A DNA stretch of 64,000 nucleotides from Desulfobacterales bacterium (GTDB lineage: Bacteria > Desulfobacterota > Desulfobacteria > Desulfobacterales > JAAELO01). Below the pieces are notes generated by a model. That model was not told the DNA's origin. It made no database searches and saw only the letters and a program-made list of their open reading frames with translations. This document shows, one piece after another, positions 41,772 through 49,458 of this stretch. The DNA lies in the NCBI GenBank assembly GCA_024226555.1, contig JAAELO010000457.1, positions 62,001 to 126,000 of the forward strand. Direction: 5' to 3'. A program made the position numbers and the translations under genes. Positions within the stretch are counted from its first letter, which is position 1. The number at the start of each line of letters is the position of its first letter.

Positions 41772-43370
41772 ATGAAATTGAAAAAAACAACACAGTTAAA
41801 GAATTTAATTTGTTCTAATGGTCTTTCTTTCATAATGGAAGCTCACAATGGTTTATCAGCAAAAATTGTTGAAGAAACCGGTTTTAAAGGTATGTGGGGG
41901 AGCGGACTTTCAATTTCAGCTGCTATGGGTGTTCGTGATAATAATGAAGCTTCCTGGACTCAGGTTCTTGAGGTAATTGAGTTTATGAGTGATGCAACAA
42001 CAATACCTATGCTTTTGGACGGTGACACTGGTTATGGAAACTTCAATAATATGAGGCGTCTCGTAACAAAACTTGAGCAAAGAGAGATCGCAGGTGTTTG
42101 TATTGAAGATAAATTGTTTCCAAAAACCAATTCTTTTATAGGTGGAGAAACTCAACCTCTTGCTGATATGGATGAGTTTTGTGGAAAGATCAAAGCAGCA
42201 AAAGATACTCAAAAGGATGACGATTTTGTTGTTGTCGCAAGGATAGAGGCTTTTATTGCCGGATGGGGTTTAAGTGAAGCTCTTAGACGTGCTGAAGCAT
42301 ACAGATTGGCTGGAGCAGATGCTATTCTTGTTCATTCAAAAAAAGCAAACTCTTCAGATATTGAGGCTTTTATGGCTGAATGGGCTAACAGGCATCCGGT
42401 TGTTATAGTTCCAACAAAATATTATTCCACGCCAACTGACAAGTTCAGAGATCTTGGAATTAATACAGTTATCTGGGCAAATCACAACATGCGTGCTGCA
42501 ATTACAGCAATTCAGAATAATTGTAAGGATATATATGACAACGAAACATTGCAGAATGTTGAGGGAAAAATAGTTTCCGTTGCTGAAATCTTCAGAATTC
42601 AGGGAGCAGATGAGCTTAAAGAAGCTGAAAAGGTATATCTGCCTACCAGTGGAAAAGAGGTTAACTCAATTATTTTGGCTGCGAGCCAGGGTAGTCTGAA
42701 TGAACTAACCACTGACATTCCAAAGACACTTCTAAAAGTTGGAGAGAAATCAATCCTTCATAATCAGGTCGATACTTACAACAGACTTGGAATTAAGGAT
42801 ATTAGTGTTGTGAGAGGTTTTGCCAAAGATAAAGTTACTGGAACAAATCTTACATTTTTTGATAATGATGATCATGAAAACACGAAGGATCTCTATTCCC
42901 TCTATCTTGCAAAAGAAAAAATGAAAGAGCTTACTGTTATCAGTTACGGTGATATTGTTTTTAAAGATTACATATTAAATGAACTTTTAAATGACGAAAA
43001 TGACATCACAATCGTAGTTGATGCAGATTTTGAGCATACAGATGATACTCAGGATTTTGTTAAAACAGATAAAGGGTACTCAAAGAAAGTTTATTTTGAA
43101 GATGTTAAACTTGATGAGATCTCAAACAGCCTTTCAAAAGATATTATAACTGGTGAATTTATTGGGCTTTGGAAAGTAAGTGGAAAAGGAATTGAGGTTG
43201 TTCAAAAAATTCTGACTGACCTTTCTCAAAGAGAAGATTTTAAGAACCTTTCTGTTTCAGATCTTTTCAGTGAAGTAGTCAAAGAGCATAGAATATCAGT
43301 AAAATTTATAAAAGGTTCATGGCTTGATGTTGATACGATTGTGGATCTGGAAAAAGCGAAGGAGTTATAA
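41772..43370 (+). CDS. pepM: phosphoenolpyruvate mutase fused to a nucleotidyltransferase-like domain
   Basis: 532 residues. The N-terminal domain (1-~300) is PEP phosphomutase, making phosphonopyruvate: signature [10 protein letters not shown] at 112-121, Mg-binding DGDTGYGN at 83-90. The C-terminal domain (~305-532) is a nucleotidyltransferase fold; its loop reads [19 protein letters not shown], without the GxGTR of active sugar/choline nucleotidyltransferases, so it may be structural or inactive, whereas the third gene of the operon carries an intact one. It is first gene of the operon; its stop overlaps the next start (TAATG). Confidence 0.95.
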
Positions 43371-44491
43371 TGCTTGATACAAAACTTTTCGGAAACAAAA
43401 TGAAGGAGATGGGGTTTAACTTTTATAGTGGCGTCCCATGTTCATTTCTTAAATATCTGATTAATTATGCAATTAATGACTGTGATTATGTTATGGCTGC
43501 AAACGAAGGTGATGCTGTTGCAATTAGTGCTGGAGCATACCTTGCAGGAAAAAAATCAGTTGTTCTTATGCAGAACTCAGGCTTAACAAACGCAACCTCA
43601 CCTTTGACCTCTTTAAACTACTCTTTCAAAATACCAGTTCTGGGTTTTGTTAGTTTAAGGGGAGAGCCTGGAATATCGGATGAACCACAGCATGAACTAA
43701 TGGGCCCAATAACAACAGGCATGTTAGAACTTATGGAGGTTAAGTGGGAATATCTTGCAGATAATATTGATGAGGCGCAAAAGCAGCTTGAAAGAGCAGA
43801 TAAGTTTATTGCTGAAGGTCAGACTTTCTTTTTTGTTGTTAAAAAAGGGACTTTATCTGAAGAAGTATTAAAGGAAGTACCACGAAATATAGTTGAAAAT
43901 AAAAATCTGATACAAAAATCAAATGATGATGAAATTCCCACAAGAAATAGTGCTCTTGAAAAGATAAATGAATTGAAAGAGGATGCCGTTTGTCTTGCAA
44001 CAACCGGAAAAACCGGAAGAGAGCTTTATGAAGTAGAAGATAGTGACAGCAATCTTTATATGGTCGGTTCAATGGGGACAATTAGTTCCCTTGCTCTTGG
44101 TATATCACTTTCCCATGAAAAGAAAGTGATTGCCATAGATGGTGATGGGTCATTAATGATGAGAATGGGCTCTCTTGCAACAAATGCGAGTTATAATCCA
44201 AAAAATATGCTTCATATCCTTCTTGATAATAATTGTCACGATTCAACAGGAGGTCAGTTTACATGCTCTCATAATGTTGACTTTGTGAATGTTGCAGCTT
44301 CCTGTGGTTATGTAAATGCATTTTATGCACACAGCGTTGATGAACTCGGAAAATATATGGAGCAATGGCAGAAAGAGCCAAATCTTACATTTATTCAGTT
44401 AAAGACAGCAAAGGGTTCTAAAAAAGATCTTGGTCGTCCAAAAATTAAACCCTATGAAGTTAAAGACAGATTAATGAAATTTATTAATTAA
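43370..44491 (+). CDS. ppd: phosphonopyruvate decarboxylase
   Basis: 373 residues, a thiamine-diphosphate enzyme that makes phosphonoacetaldehyde and CO2 and pulls the unfavourable mutase step. The N-terminal part has FYSGVPCSFLK, AANEGDAVAISAG and the SDEPQHELMG loop. The C-terminal TPP-binding part has IDGDGSLMMRMG followed by LLDNNCHDSTGGQ. The length is typical. The start codon overlaps the mutase stop in TAATG, indicating translational coupling. Cytoplasmic. Confidence 0.95.
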   Translation: MLDTKLFGNKMKEMGFNFYSGVPCSFLKYLINYAINDCDYVMAANEGDAVAISAGAYLAGKKSVVLMQNSGLTNATSPLTSLNYSFKIPVLGFVSLRGEPGISDEPQHELMGPITTGMLELMEVKWEYLADNIDEAQKQLERADKFIAEGQTFFFVVKKGTLSEEVLKEVPRNIVENKNLIQKSNDDEIPTRNSALEKINELKEDAVCLATTGKTGRELYEVEDSDSNLYMVGSMGTISSLALGISLSHEKKVIAIDGDGSLMMRMGSLATNASYNPKNMLHILLDNNCHDSTGGQFTCSHNVDFVNVAASCGYVNAFYAHSVDELGKYMEQWQKEPNLTFIQLKTAKGSKKDLGRPKIKPYEVKDRLMKFIN

Positions 44492-44525
44492 GATTTGATA
44501 CAAATATAGTGATTCAGGAGAAGAT

Positions 44526-46358
44526 ATGAAAACAGCAGTTATTATGGCAGCCGGGATGGGAACGAGACTTGAAGAGAGAACTAAAGATATGCCTAAAGGT
44601 TTCTTAAAGATTGGATCTGTTCCAATTATTGAGGAATCAATCATAAAGCTGCTTAATGTTGGTATAGAAAAGATATTTATTGGAACTGGTTACTTATCAG
44701 AGCATTTCGACAGGTTGAAGGATTTTTATCCTGTGGAACTTATTAAAAGTGAAAAATTTGAAACAACAAGTAGTATGTACACTCTTTATAATATGAGAGA
44801 TCGTATCAAAGATGATTTTTTACTACTTGAATCGGATTTAATGTACGACCAAAAAGGTTTGAATTATCTCCTTGAAGCGAAAGAAAATGATGTAATTCTT
44901 GCAAGTGGTAAAACCAACTCCGGTGATGAAGTATATATAGAAACGGATAGTAATGGTTTTTTGGTAAATATGTCTAAAAAATCGGATGACCTTGGATCTA
45001 TTAATGGAGAACTTGTTGGTATTACAAAAGTCTCATACAATACATTTAAAGAGATGTGTGTATATGCAGAAAAAGCTTTTGAAACCAACCCTAAAATAGA
45101 TTATGAAACAGTACTCGTTGGAATAACTGAGGAACTTCATTATAGTGTAAAAGTTGTTGAGGATTATACATGGTGCGAAATTGATGATGAAAGTCATCTT
45201 AAAAGAGCAAATGAGTTAATCTACCCTGAGATCCTGAGAAAAGAGGCCGGAAGAAAAAGTGTAAAAAGGAATATTCTTTTAAATCCAGGTCCTGCAACAA
45301 CAACAGATACTGTTAAATATGCCCAGGTTGTTCCGGATATCTGTCCCCGTGAAAAAGAGTTTGCTGATCTGGTTCGTAAAGTTCAAAAAGATATGGTCGA
45401 TATCGTCCATGGCGGTGATGAGTATGCCTCTGTTTTCTTTGCCGGATCTGGAACTGCAATAATGGATGCTGTTATCAATTCAGTTGTTCCTGGAGATGGT
45501 AAGCTTTGTATAATTGTTAATGGTGCATATGGCAGCAGGATGGTTAAAATTGCTGAAGCCTATAGTATTGATCATATGGTAATTGATTTTGGGTTCGGTG
45601 GTAAGATTGATCTTGAAAAGGTTGAAAGTGAAATAGCAAAAGACAAAGAGATCAAATGCGTTGCTGTTGTACACCACGAAACAACAACAGGTATCTTAAA
45701 TCCGGTTGATAGGATTGCAGACTTAAAAGCAAAGTATAATTTCTCATTTGTTGTTGATGGTATTTCAACCTATGCCGGACTTCCAATTAATATTAAAGAG
45801 AGCAAAATAGACTTTCTTCTTTCAACTTCAAACAAGTGTATTCAGGGCATGGCTGGTTTATCCTTTGCGATTTGCAAAATAGATGAATTGATTAAAACAA
45901 AGGATTTTCCAGTAAGATCTTTCTATCTGAATCTTTACAATCAGTACATTCACTTTGAAGAGAAAGGTCAGTGGCAATTTACCCCACCAGTACAGATTCT
46001 TTATGCCCTTGATCAAGCAGTGAAAGAGTATTATGCAGAGGGTGAAACAGCTCGTTATGAAAGATATGATGCTTGCTGGAGAAAATACAGAGAGGAACTT
46101 CCAAAACTTGGATTTAATTTCCTACATGATGCTGAAGAGGATTCTAAAGTTCTTTTAACCATTATGGAACCTGATCATCCAAATTATTCCTTTAACAGAA
46201 TGCATGATTATCTTTATGAAAGAGGATTTACAATCTACCCGGGTAAAGTTGGAAATAAAAATACTTTCAGACTCTCTAATATCGGAGATGTTCATCCGGA
46301 AGATATAGAAAATTTTATCAAAGTTTTAAAACAATATGTTGATAAAGAACTAGTTTAG
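44526..46358 (+). CDS. pntC: CMP-aminoethylphosphonate cytidylyltransferase fused to 2-aminoethylphosphonate transaminase
   Basis: 610 residues. The N-terminal nucleotidyltransferase (1-~240) has an intact AAGMGTRLEERTKDMPKGFL loop (8-27) and ESDLMYD at 102-108, as in PntC/LicC enzymes. The C-terminal fold-type I transaminase (~248-610) starts LLNPGPATTTD and carries the PLP lysine K437 in STSNKCIQG. The transaminase makes aminoethylphosphonate from phosphonoacetaldehyde, and the other half activates it to CMP-AEP. The same fusion is known from Treponema denticola. GGAGAAG precedes the ATG. Confidence 0.93.
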   Translation: MKTAVIMAAGMGTRLEERTKDMPKGFLKIGSVPIIEESIIKLLNVGIEKIFIGTGYLSEHFDRLKDFYPVELIKSEKFETTSSMYTLYNMRDRIKDDFLLLESDLMYDQKGLNYLLEAKENDVILASGKTNSGDEVYIETDSNGFLVNMSKKSDDLGSINGELVGITKVSYNTFKEMCVYAEKAFETNPKIDYETVLVGITEELHYSVKVVEDYTWCEIDDESHLKRANELIYPEILRKEAGRKSVKRNILLNPGPATTTDTVKYAQVVPDICPREKEFADLVRKVQKDMVDIVHGGDEYASVFFAGSGTAIMDAVINSVVPGDGKLCIIVNGAYGSRMVKIAEAYSIDHMVIDFGFGGKIDLEKVESEIAKDKEIKCVAVVHHETTTGILNPVDRIADLKAKYNFSFVVDGISTYAGLPINIKESKIDFLLSTSNKCIQGMAGLSFAICKIDELIKTKDFPVRSFYLNLYNQYIHFEEKGQWQFTPPVQILYALDQAVKEYYAEGETARYERYDACWRKYREELPKLGFNFLHDAEEDSKVLLTIMEPDHPNYSFNRMHDYLYERGFTIYPGKVGNKNTFRLSNIGDVHPEDIENFIKVLKQYVDKELV

Positions 46359-46378
46359 ATAAAAAGGGGAAGTTTTTA

Positions 46379-47371
46379 ATGTTTAATGAGTACAAGTACC
46401 AGTGTAAGGATGATTCTGTTTTATTAGATCCTTTCAAGAAATTTGTTGTAACACCATTGATGAAGTTTATGCCTTACCGCATTCCGGCAAATACAATTAC
46501 AATAATTTCAAACATGTTTATTTACTACGCCCTTTATCTATCATTTATCCATGATGGTGCTCCAGCTAATTATTTAATTATATCACTTCTGATATTAACA
46601 TATGTTGTTGGGGATCATTTTGATGGGATGCAGGCGAGAAGAACCGGAACCGGCTCACCCCTGGGGGAGTTTTGTGACCACTATCTTGATATTTTTAATA
46701 ACGGAATAGTACTTATAATTGTATTTAATCTGTTTGGAATTACTAATTTATATATAGTGGTATCAGCTTTTTTCATATCCTATCTTTCACATTCATCTAT
46801 AATCTATGAACAGTTTGCTACTAAATGGTTAATTTTTGACAAAATTGGTTCATTAGAGGGGCTTTTCTTAACACTGTGTTTACTGGTTGCAAGTTTTTTT
46901 AAGCCAGTACGGGAATTGCTAACAAGTAATGTTGTTTCAAATCTTACTTTAATTGAAGTTATCCTTCTTGTTACCTATATTCTTGGCATAGGAACTATGT
47001 TTACAGTTTCTAAACGTGTCGGAAGATTCTCACTTAAGTTTGTAATCTATGTGCTTTTTATGGCACTGTTATCAATATATAGTATCAAATTTCTAAGTTT
47101 CAACTACTCAGTACTTTTATTAACTCTTTATAATGCAATTTATATCGGAAATTTAATGAAAGCGCATTTAATTGACAGCAAAGAAAGATATGCTGACATT
47201 GTTGTGCCGGCTCTTATTCTGATTCACTGGGTAATTGGTGGAAATGCAGCTGAATTTTACATCTATGCTGTTTTATATATGATTCTTTATCTTGTTTTTA
47301 TAACAATAACTATATCATATCCACTTAGACAATTCTGGTTCTGGATCAATCCCTCAAAAAAAGAATCTTAA
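46379..47371 (+). CDS. CDP-alcohol phosphatidyltransferase family protein (probable phosphonolipid synthase)
   Basis: 330 residues, about eight membrane segments. The complete family motif is present: D79-x2-D82-G83-x2-A86-R87-x8-G96-x3-D100-x3-D104. Such enzymes displace CMP from an activated head group with a lipid alcohol. Placed 20 nt after pntC, its likely job is to move aminoethylphosphonate from CMP-AEP onto diacylglycerol or another polyprenyl/glyceryl acceptor at the inner membrane. The acceptor cannot be seen in sequence. AAAGGGGAAG precedes the ATG, and a strong terminator follows. Confidence 0.92.
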   Translation: MFNEYKYQCKDDSVLLDPFKKFVVTPLMKFMPYRIPANTITIISNMFIYYALYLSFIHDGAPANYLIISLLILTYVVGDHFDGMQARRTGTGSPLGEFCDHYLDIFNNGIVLIIVFNLFGITNLYIVVSAFFISYLSHSSIIYEQFATKWLIFDKIGSLEGLFLTLCLLVASFFKPVRELLTSNVVSNLTLIEVILLVTYILGIGTMFTVSKRVGRFSLKFVIYVLFMALLSIYSIKFLSFNYSVLLLTLYNAIYIGNLMKAHLIDSKERYADIVVPALILIHWVIGGNAAEFYIYAVLYMILYLVFITITISYPLRQFWFWINPSKKES

Positions 47372-47406
47372 AAAATATATAAAAACATTTCTTTATAGTC
47401 TTAATG

Positions 47407-47440
47407 AAAGAGCTACATTATTTATGTAGCTCTTTTTTTT
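47407..47440 (+). terminator. rho-independent terminator of the phosphonate operon
   Basis: 12-bp perfect stem AAAGAGCTACAT / ATGTAGCTCTTT, loop TATTT, followed by T8. Confidence 0.92.
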
Positions 47441-47611: not shown

Positions 47612-47640
47612 TTGACATAATGTTATACCTACACTATCTA
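47612..47640 (+). promoter_or_regulatory. sigma-70-type promoter of the macrodomain-DUF4291-kptA operon
   Basis: TTGACA (47612-47617), 17-bp spacer, TATCTA (47635-47640). Predicted start near 47647, about 70 nt before the first gene. It is one of the best housekeeping promoter matches in the window. Confidence 0.75.
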
Positions 47641-47667
47641 TGTGTCATAAATACACTATACTGGTGT
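47631..47667. promoter_or_regulatory. two tandem 15-bp operators, ACACTAT-N4-GTGT
   Basis: ACACTATCTATGTGT (47631-47645) covers the -10 box and ACACTATACTGGTGT (47653-47667) lies just after the start site. Both show ACAC-N7-GTGT dyads and they are 22 bp apart, two helical turns, so dimers would sit on the same DNA face. This is a repression layout. The regulator is not in the operon. Confidence 0.7.
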
Positions 47668-47716
47668 AATTAAAAAACAGTTTAACTTTTGAGATAGTTA
47701 ATGAAATGGTATTATT

Positions 47717-48190
47717 ATGAAATCGATTAAATACATAAAAGGGGATGCTACAAGTCCACAAACTAAGGGAATTAAAATAATTTGCCATATTTGTAATGAC
47801 CTTGGAGGTTGGGGAAAGGGCTTTGTGCTTGCTATCTCAAAACGCTGGGAAGAACCTGAAAAAGACTACAGAAAATGGCACAGGGAAAGATCAAAAAATG
47901 ATTTTGAATTGGGTAATGTTCGTTTAATAAAAGTAGATAAATATATTTATATTGCAAATATGATCGGACAAAGAGGTATGAAAACAGGTAGTAATGGACC
48001 TCCAATAAGATATGAAGCAGTTCAATCCTGTTTGGAATTTGTAAGTAATAAAGCAATTGAACTAAACGCATCAGTCCATATGCCAAGAATTGGTTGTGGT
48101 TTAGCTGGTGGCAAATGGAACAAAATTGAACCTGTTATTGAAGATACGTTATTAAAGAAAAATGTATCCGTGTATATTTATGATTATTAA
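47717..48190 (+). CDS. macrodomain protein (ADP-ribose-1''-phosphate phosphatase / de-ADP-ribosylase type)
   Basis: 157 residues, a single macrodomain. Key strings are YIKGDATSP at the start, HICNDLGGWGKGFVLAISKRW (nucleotide loop) and IGCGLAGGKW (second loop). The pattern resembles the Poa1/TARG1-like branch, which removes phosphate from ADP-ribose 1''-phosphate or ADP-ribose from proteins. Followed by DUF4291 (20-35 nt) and kptA, whose reaction produces an ADP-ribose cyclic phosphate; recycling of that product is the obvious role (inference). The ribosome binding site is weak. Confidence 0.88.
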   Translation: MKSIKYIKGDATSPQTKGIKIICHICNDLGGWGKGFVLAISKRWEEPEKDYRKWHRERSKNDFELGNVRLIKVDKYIYIANMIGQRGMKTGSNGPPIRYEAVQSCLEFVSNKAIELNASVHMPRIGCGLAGGKWNKIEPVIEDTLLKKNVSVYIYDY

Positions 48191-48225
48191 ATGATACAAA
48201 AAATTAAAAATTGAAAGTTAAGAAA

Positions 48226-48852
48226 ATGAATTTAGAAACAGAAAAATATATAAAACAGAAAACAATCTGGCCGCAGGAAGGACAATGTGTTTTAGCCCAG
48301 TATGATGAAAAAACGATAATTGTATATCAGGCTTATAGGCCATCTATTGGTAATGCAGCAGTAAAAAATCAAAGTTTTGGAGAGGGTGGATTTAGTTTCT
48401 CAAGAATGAGTTGGATTAAAACCAATTTTCTTTGGATGATGTATAGATCAGGTTGGGGGACAAAAGATGGTCAGGAAGTAATTCTTGCCATTCGTTTGAA
48501 AAGAGATTTTTTTGATGAGATTCTCTTAAATGCCTTCCCTTCATCAAATAAAAACAGGTTGGCAAAAGATGAATGGGATAAAATAATCTCAGGTTCCGAT
48601 GTAAGGCTACAATGGGACCCGGATCATGCTCCAAATGGAGACAAAGAAGAAAGAAGAGCAGTTCAGTTAGGTTTAAGAAACGGTTTTCTTAAACCCTTTG
48701 AAGGGGATGGAATTTTAGAAATAACAGATATCTCAGAATTTGTTAATGGACAGAGAAAAATTTTGGAAGAAGGGTTATTGGAAGAATTGATTACTCCGAA
48801 AGAAAGAGTTTACCCAGTAAGTACAGAACAAATGAAAGCTCTTAGAATGTAA
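48226..48852 (+). CDS. DUF4291 family protein
   Basis: 208 residues. The family pattern is clear: TIIVYQAYRPSIGNAAV, then FSRMSWIKTNFLWMMYRSGW and later VRLQWDPDHAPNG with ERRAVQLGLRN. DUF4291 has no established function known to me. The invariant Arg, Trp, His and Gln residues suggest an enzyme rather than a structural protein. The frame is open from a TTG at 48211, but the ATG at 48226 gives the better N-terminus. It sits between macrodomain and RNA 2'-phosphotransferase genes in one operon, which ties it to ADP-ribose or RNA end metabolism (inference). Confidence 0.85.
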   Translation: MNLETEKYIKQKTIWPQEGQCVLAQYDEKTIIVYQAYRPSIGNAAVKNQSFGEGGFSFSRMSWIKTNFLWMMYRSGWGTKDGQEVILAIRLKRDFFDEILLNAFPSSNKNRLAKDEWDKIISGSDVRLQWDPDHAPNGDKEERRAVQLGLRNGFLKPFEGDGILEITDISEFVNGQRKILEEGLLEELITPKERVYPVSTEQMKALRM

Positions 48853-48874
48853 AGATAATGAGGAATAAAAAAAA

Positions 48875-49414
48875 ATGCAATCAACAAGAAAAATATCAAA
48901 ATATTTTAGCTATATACTAAGACACCATCCTGAAGCGATAGGTATAACTTTAGATGACGAAGGATGGGCACAAATTGATGAACTTATTGAAAAAACAAAA
49001 AAATTCAAACTAACTATGGAGATGATTCAAACCGTAGTTGATACGAACGATAAGAAAAGGTTTACACTAAGTTCAGATAAGAGAAGAATAAAAGCAAATC
49101 AGGGGCATTCAATTGAAGTTGACCTTGCCCTTGAACCAATAGATCCACCGGATTTTCTGCTCCATGGAACAGCTCAAAAATCTATTGAATCTATTATGGA
49201 TAAAGGAATTTTAAAAGGACAAAGACATCATGTCCATTTATCAGAAACTAAAGAAACTGCTTTTGCAGTTGGCCAAAGATATGGAAAACCTGTTCTTTTA
49301 AAAATTGATTCTAATAAAATGGCAGGTGATGGTTTTAAATTCTACAAATCTTTAAATGGAGTCTGGTTGGTAGAGGGGGTTCCACCACGCTATATTGAGA
49401 TTATAACGAACTAA
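48875..49414 (+). CDS. kptA: RNA 2'-phosphotransferase (Tpt1/KptA)
   Basis: 179 residues. The enzyme moves an internal RNA 2'-phosphate to NAD, releasing nicotinamide and ADP-ribose 1''-2''-cyclic phosphate. The essential Arg-His-Arg-Arg set is in place: R16 and H17 (LRHHPE), R71 (in R-x4-QGHS) and R117 (RHHVHLS). HGT at 97-99 belongs to the ADP-ribosyltransferase core. Bacteria lack the yeast-type tRNA splicing that makes 2'-phosphates, so the natural substrate is open. GAGGAATAA precedes the ATG; it is last gene of the three-gene operon. Confidence 0.95.
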   Translation: MQSTRKISKYFSYILRHHPEAIGITLDDEGWAQIDELIEKTKKFKLTMEMIQTVVDTNDKKRFTLSSDKRRIKANQGHSIEVDLALEPIDPPDFLLHGTAQKSIESIMDKGILKGQRHHVHLSETKETAFAVGQRYGKPVLLKIDSNKMAGDGFKFYKSLNGVWLVEGVPPRYIEIITN

Positions 49415-49427
49415 GAAGAGAACTACT

Positions 49428-49458
49428 AATCTCCTTTTCATTCATTGAAAGGGAGATT
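49428..49458 (+). terminator. hairpin after kptA
   Basis: 13-bp stem AATCTCCTTTTCA / TGAAAGGGAGATT with one wobble pair and loop TTCAT. No strong T-run follows. Confidence 0.55.

Follow-up and report, generated by a model that had tools for sequence, protein, structure and literature searches.

The NAD-dependent RNA 2'-phosphotransferase KptA (Tpt1) is an enzyme of the ADP-ribosyltransferase (ART) fold that works with other residues (Arg-His-Arg-Arg) than the canonical triad. To our knowledge, a physiological substrate or signal for the bacterial enzyme has long been lacking. Here, we describe a three-gene operon encoding a macrodomain protein, a DUF4291 protein and KptA in a 64,000-nt stretch of DNA from a Desulfobacterales bacterium (assembly GCA_024226555.1, contig JAAELO010000457.1, positions 62,001 to 126,000 of the forward strand), referred to below as the window. 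KptA, SCO6735-type macrodomains, NrtR regulons, host ADP-ribose islands (PMC9503650) and bacterial NARP1, composed of Adps and Namat (PMC12774641), are already known. In the open-access literature searched, we found no paper that names DUF4291 and none that links KptA or DUF4291 to NrtR islands, an absence that is not proof of novelty.

The reading that we favour, and hold to be probable, is that this small operon belongs to the NrtR regulon and would clean ADP-ribose-linked and 2'-phosphate-linked lesions off nucleic acid. Its elements, with gene identities established by computation, are as follows.

47612..47617, + strand: -35 element TTGACA, read from the sequence; the same element stands at the same operator distance before the nrtR gene of this genome
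47635..47640, + strand: probable -10 element TATCTA inside the operator, placed from the sequence; 17-nt spacer, weak match
47630..47668, + strand: NrtR-type operator ladder; the same 15-mer and 22-bp step occur in the nrtR promoter (L102)
47717..48190, + strand: macrodomain protein, 157 aa, SCO6735/Bt_1257 (ALC1/TARG1-like) class, from PF01661, 5e3b, 2fg1 and residues
48226..48852, + strand: DUF4291 protein, 208 aa, predicted ADP-ribosyltransferase fold, from PF14124, AlphaFold and Foldseek
48875..49414, + strand: kptA/tpt1, putative NAD-dependent RNA 2'-phosphotransferase, 179 aa, from PF01885, NF002014, 7kw8 and the tetrad
49428..49458, + strand: hairpin 3' of kptA, 13 bp, without a U-run, possible transcript 3' end (-16.7 kcal/mol, z -3.7)

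The three open reading frames lie on the same (+) strand, match PF01661, PF14124 and PF01885, respectively, and are separated by gaps of about 35 nt, taking ATG 48226 as the DUF4291 start, and 22 nt. The DUF4291 frame is open from TTG 48211, and ATG 48226 is the probable start, which fits the starts of its relatives. Because the cluster upstream ends with a rho-independent-looking terminator at 47406-47436 and the hairpin at 49428-49458 follows kptA, the three genes are most likely a single transcript. The original prediction of one repressible three-gene operon is thereby borne out, with the reading frames in place between a regulated promoter and a 3' hairpin.

The association of these genes recurs well beyond this locus. 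A scan of GTDB species contigs provided 80 DUF4291 loci, the best of at least 582, and kptA was present at 25 of them, every time on the DUF4291 strand, while a macrodomain of the window's own subfamily was present at 15. The loci bearing kptA span Bacteroidota, Verrucomicrobiota, Pseudomonadota and Cyanobacteriota, and on the DUF4291 tree the kptA label switches 8 times. Anywhere in the genome, kptA was found in 42 of 50 DUF4291 genomes tested versus 24 of 247 in a Bacteroidota sample. In an unbiased Bacteroidota sample with the centre genome left out (246 of 247), DUF4291 occurred in 6 genomes, kptA in 23 and both in 5 (Fisher p = 2.6e-5); in these 5 and in the centre genome, kptA lies within 6 kb of DUF4291 on the same strand. 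The adjacency of DUF4291, kptA and macrodomain genes proposed earlier was thus put to the test of random distribution, and it stood (25/80 loci; p = 2.6e-5).

The promoter probably connects the operon with NAD metabolism. In the 7.69-Mb genome, TACACTATNNNNGTGT has only 2 occurrences, both at this promoter and 22 bp apart. It had been proposed that the promoter carries two operators, TACACTATCTATGTGT (47630-47645) and TACACTATACTGGTGT (47652-47667); both sites are real, and they are better read as a ladder of four half-sites at 11-bp steps, namely ACAC (47631-47634), GTGT (47642-47645), ACAC (47653-47656) and GTGT (47664-47667), with a central palindrome GTGT-N7-ACAC at 47642-47656. Lying downstream of TTGACA (47612), the ladder covers the -10 element and the start region. 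A generic sigma-70 scanner did not list the window promoter, because its -10 TATCTA is weak. The genome holds two NrtR-like genes, the better one on contig C821, and the 15-mer ACACTATCTATGTGT, 13 nt after TTGACA, is common to the operon promoter and the promoter of this nrtR; in both, a further ACACTAT lies 22 bp beyond ACACTATCTATGTGT. Similarly, GYGT-N7-ACRC was found within about 150 nt of 15 of the 21 nrtR starts in DUF4291 islands (expected 0.37), and the mycobacterial NrtR site is also an N7-spaced palindrome (PMC6800001). Since the operator is common to the nrtR of the same genome and its form is conserved before the island nrtR genes, the evidence for placing the operon in an NrtR regulon is good, though indirect, and from it we infer NrtR binding. 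NrtR-type regulators sense ADP-ribose according to PMC9503650, which cites earlier work, and the match with the switch of nrtR in the same genome ties the cassette to ADP-ribose/NAD status. The regulon search used patterns only, and a 2-mismatch operator pattern gave fewer matches than its reversed control and was uninformative. A fourth ACACTATNNNNGTGT site (contig C870) is intergenic, lacks promoter elements and was dismissed as a chance occurrence.

These results bear on whether three accessory genes were simply co-transferred without a joint function. DUF4291 is nearest to gammaproteobacteria and, among the fetched loci, the macrodomain and KptA are nearest to Bacteroidota, as such an incidental linkage would have it. 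This explanation is already disfavoured by the recurrent same-strand linkage across phyla (p = 2.6e-5) and by the operator common with nrtR, and we consider it highly improbable.

In Bacteroidota and Verrucomicrobiota, DUF4291 is found in islands with genes for NrtR, ADP-ribosylglycohydrolase (ARH), MacroD, NADAR, microbial PARG, Sir2, and nicotinamidase-like, metallophosphatase, Prs-like and NAMPT-like proteins. Across the 80 loci, ARH was counted at 26, MacroD at 25, NrtR at 21, NADAR at 20, the Prs-like gene at 15, the metallophosphatase at 14 and the NAMPT-like gene at 12. Smaller versions include NrtR-DUF4291-ARH (L017), DUF4291-NADAR-ARH (L081, L094) and the macrodomain-DUF4291-kptA set of the window, which is a small version of the large NAD/ADP-ribose recycling islands. 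An apparent DUF4291-ARH fusion in L081 proved to be overlapping frames. The NAMPT-like protein scores 617 bits against the Namat structures 9w5x/9w5w and 239 against animal Nampt, and keeps the Namat clamp residues R40, F392 and Y396; by these matches it is Namat, and the Prs-like protein, from its Prs match, is presumably Adps. From this gene content, Namat included, the islands plausibly strip ADP-ribose off macromolecules and rebuild NAD from the released ADP-ribose. Because the NAMPT-like gene of DUF4291 islands (L074 6655-8124, L052 7868-9337 and others, all in Bacteroidota) is Namat by sequence, bacterial NARP1 may serve macromolecular ADP-ribose recycling beyond anti-defence. Also, about 18 of the 80 islands carry a family of about 138 aa without a Pfam match (L040 8333-8749, L018 5651-6040, L086 4075-4491 and relatives), which appears joined to microbial PARG in L066, L071 and L082 and is an uncharacterised component of ADP-ribose islands.

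KptA of the operon matches PF01885 with 178 bits, passes the NCBIfam equivalog NF002014 (248.9 bits, cut-off 239) and aligns with 7kw8, a solved tRNA 2'-phosphotransferase, at 180 bits. The complete Arg-His-Arg-Arg set claimed for it was found as R16-H17-R62-R117, with positions assigned by comparison with PMC6333775, and the tetrad is kept in all aligned relatives that cover those positions. On its sequence, the protein is an ordinary Tpt1/KptA. No other KptA above 135 bits was found in a sample of 297 genomes of the phylum; the operon copy, at 178, outscores them all, which suggests that the operon was acquired. The same genome carries a second, divergent KptA-like gene on contig C735 (L002 1483-2196), whose 237-aa product scores 50 bits. 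Most of the other genomes sampled from the order also give KptA matches of this weak kind, so the C735 protein may be a paralogue native to the lineage that serves another role.

The macrodomain protein reaches PF01661 with 22 bits, at the cut-off, and matches over its full length 5e3b (SCO6735, 233 bits) and 2fg1 (Bt_1257, 194 bits). By alignment, the residues studied in SCO6735 (H24, N27, K34, Q85 and K89) are all present. SCO6735 removes thymidine-linked ADP-ribose and lacks the lysine of TARG1 and DarG (PMC9411070). Full-length DarG (NF048014, cut-off 250 bits) was not recovered, as the protein scored 34.5 bits over the macrodomain part only. The macrodomain is more likely an eraser of ADP-ribose on nucleic acid, judging by its class. 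A generic phosphatase of ADP-ribose 1''-phosphate (Appr1p) was dropped as a candidate after the 5e3b match.

This class assignment matters for the classical pathway, in which ADP-ribose 1''-2''-cyclic phosphate (Appr>p) made by KptA would be opened to Appr1p by DUF4291 and then dephosphorylated by the macrodomain. The gene order and the minimal three-gene set suit such a pathway, DUF4291 is the sole gene left for the cyclic phosphodiesterase step, and some macrodomains act on Appr1p (PMC9503650). Yet the fold of DUF4291 is neither of the 2H nor of the metallophosphatase type, none of its invariant residues is a His, a separate metallophosphatase gene is present at 14 of the 80 loci, and the macrodomain is of the SCO6735 class. 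Because of this membership in a class reported to remove thymidine-linked ADP-ribose (PMC9411070), the original view of the macrodomain as the natural Appr>p consumer is unsupported, and we regard the classical pathway as distinctly unlikely.

DUF4291 is the least characterised component. Its protein matches PF14124 with 205 bits, and a sequence search against the PDB gave no match. The AlphaFold model has a pLDDT of 96.1, and the sole Foldseek match in the PDB below 1e-3 is RhsP2 (7rt7), followed by ParT and other ARTs; a second model, of a family member with 41% identity, again matched only RhsP2 below 1e-3 (E 1.4e-5, TM 0.70), while the viral fold library gave nothing below 1e-3. DUF4291 is therefore predicted to adopt the ADP-ribosyltransferase fold, which had been proposed for comparison together with the phosphatase fold. 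RhsP2 itself uses an R-Y-E triad to ADP-ribosylate the 2'-OH groups of RNA (PMC12340436). In a 59-sequence alignment of DUF4291, about 20 columns are invariant, including YQ, RMxWxK, LWxMxR, QxDP, QxG and PxE.

The R/H-Y/S-E residues of ARTs are not evident among these sequences, though some 20 other columns are invariant, and many of the positions that vary little or not at all hold a basic or aromatic side chain (R65, K70, R79, K85, W68, W75, W82), as in a nucleotide pocket. DUF4291 could accordingly be a non-catalytic ART-fold protein that binds or senses NAD, ADP-ribose or ADP-ribosylated RNA and guides KptA and the macrodomain to substrates. We think this unlikely. The strict polar set Q40, Q88, Q134-W-D136, Q152 and E198 resembles an active site, and lack of the canonical triad would not preclude catalysis, because KptA uses a different Arg-His-Arg-Arg site. 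Speculatively, and at somewhat less than an even chance, DUF4291 would provide a KptA-like, NAD-dependent transferase step on RNA or phosphate. Rather doubtful, in our view, is a more specific role as a non-toxin, housekeeping-type ART on RNA (2'-OH or phosphate), which would act with KptA and the macrodomain either in a cycle that writes and erases ADP-ribosylation on RNA under NrtR control or in ADP-ribosylation-based RNA repair.

The nearest fold being an antibacterial RNA ART also raises the idea of a cassette for phage defence or of the toxin-antitoxin type, in which DUF4291 would be the ART toxin and the macrodomain its DarG-like antitoxin. The macrodomain resembles DarG, SCO6735 neutralises DarT (PMC9411070), and PMC9503650 predicts host islands that counter ADP-ribosylation. 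However, DUF4291 often occurs without a macrodomain or other ADP-ribose hydrolase gene, its ART triad is not evident, and regulation runs through a metabolic NrtR-type operator. PADLOC has no model for these proteins, save for the weak DarG match of the macrodomain, and tblastn found no DUF4291 in phage records. In IMG/VR, only six contigs carry DUF4291, and one of them (L094) is the DUF4291-NADAR-ARH operon. A toxin or defence cassette thus seems quite improbable.

Several observations weigh against the reading of a nucleic-acid cleaning operon under NrtR. Of the 80 DUF4291 loci, 45 have no ADP-ribose gene in reach, some of these loci ending at a contig edge, and a second DUF4291 gene in the same genome (L110 2430-3023, contig C184) has no ADP-ribose neighbours and adjoins a DUF6678-like protein. 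DUF4291 can therefore act alone. Mapped by strand order, a mapping that is itself inferred, the invariant Gln40 falls at motif I (the R/H place) and Trp68 at motif II (the Y/S place), and no invariant Glu starts strand 5; the protein may for this reason not be a transferase, and a profile-profile comparison with KptA detected no relation. SCO6735 was inactive on 5'-phospho-ADP-ribosylated RNA and DNA and on 2'-OH-ADP-ribosylated RNA; the discussion of the same paper has it acting on RNA phosphate ends (PMC11833690). Further, genes for NARP1 (Adps, Namat), ARH and NADAR are absent beside the window operon, nrtR lies on a different contig, and the genome assembly consists of 904 contigs, with contamination estimated at 3.7%.

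In the mechanism that we propose, the repressor NrtR, a Nudix-type sensor of ADP-ribose whose gene lies elsewhere in the genome, would sit on the ACAC/GTGT ladder, across the -10 element and the start region. A rise in ADP-ribose, through NADase attack, ADP-ribosylating toxins or RNA repair, would release NrtR and allow the three proteins to be made. The SCO6735-type macrodomain would strip ADP-ribose from nucleic acid and perhaps protein, and KptA would clear RNA 2'-phosphates left after RNA damage, consuming NAD and yielding Appr>p. DUF4291, with its predicted ART fold and non-canonical active site, may perform, alongside KptA, a second NAD/ADP-ribose step directed at RNA or phosphate. In the larger islands, released ADP-ribose would probably be rebuilt into NAD by the Adps-like/Namat pair.

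The operon is flanked by a phosphonate gene cluster on one side and a convergent GNAT gene on the other. Just upstream, at window positions 41772-47371, an apparent phosphonate operon encodes a phosphoenolpyruvate mutase fused to an NTP-transferase-like domain, a thiamine pyrophosphate enzyme (phosphonopyruvate decarboxylase-like), a nucleotidyltransferase-aminotransferase fusion and a CDP-alcohol phosphatidyltransferase, a gene content that suggests aminoethylphosphonate lipid synthesis. Elsewhere in the genome, a DUF4291 fragment lies on contig C385 (L005). In a Bacteroidota genome (G430:C8:7319-8431), the kptA directly behind DUF4291 is split in two frames with one stop, as a pseudogene or through sequencing error. 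In Nostoc-type cyanobacteria (L024, L042-L046, L050, L051, L059, L068, L072, L073 and L090), DUF4291 is conserved beside a gene for an NAD-dependent epimerase, in loci without ADP-ribose genes; a different or broader role is therefore possible in these organisms.

DUF4291 and the bacterial retention of KptA, two long-standing unknowns, are thus brought into one testable common context. The NrtR-type operator and the NAD/ADP-ribose islands tie KptA to ADP-ribose status, which makes the question of bacterial KptA testable, and an ART fold nearest to an RNA-modifying enzyme makes DUF4291 a concrete biochemical target.

Compared with known systems, the KptA of the operon shares sequence, tetrad and length with KptA/Tpt1, and no difference was found. 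The macrodomain matches SCO6735/Bt_1257 over its full length and keeps the residues mutagenised in SCO6735, whereas it has Ile for Val25 and Asn for Lys93 and is encoded together with kptA and DUF4291. The predicted DUF4291 fold is like that of RhsP2 (7rt7; Foldseek probability 1.00, TM 0.68-0.70 by target), but identity is 12-13%, the R-Y-E triad is not evident, the protein is about 60 residues longer and no Rhs polymorphic toxin is attached. The ARG-centred host islands of Iyer et al. (2022; PMC9503650), predicted to counter ADP-ribosylation, bring together ADP-ribosylglycohydrolase, Macro, NADAR, a phosphatase and a Nudix-helix-turn-helix repressor, as do DUF4291 islands; the section on these host islands makes no mention of KptA, DUF4291 or Adps/Namat, and the ARH gene, present at 26 of the 80 related DUF4291 loci, is absent beside the window operon. 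The Prs-like and Namat genes of bacterial NARP1 (Adps-Namat) are found in Bacteroidota DUF4291 islands with the clamp residues kept, whereas beside the window operon both are lacking. Finally, the operon is like NrtR-regulated NAD operons in its Nudix-winged-helix-domain repressor, its N7-spaced palindromic operator, an nrtR that itself carries the operator and its NAD/ADP-ribose targets; in contrast to them, the target here is macrodomain-DUF4291-KptA, control is in trans, and the ACAC/GTGT half-sites form a ladder.

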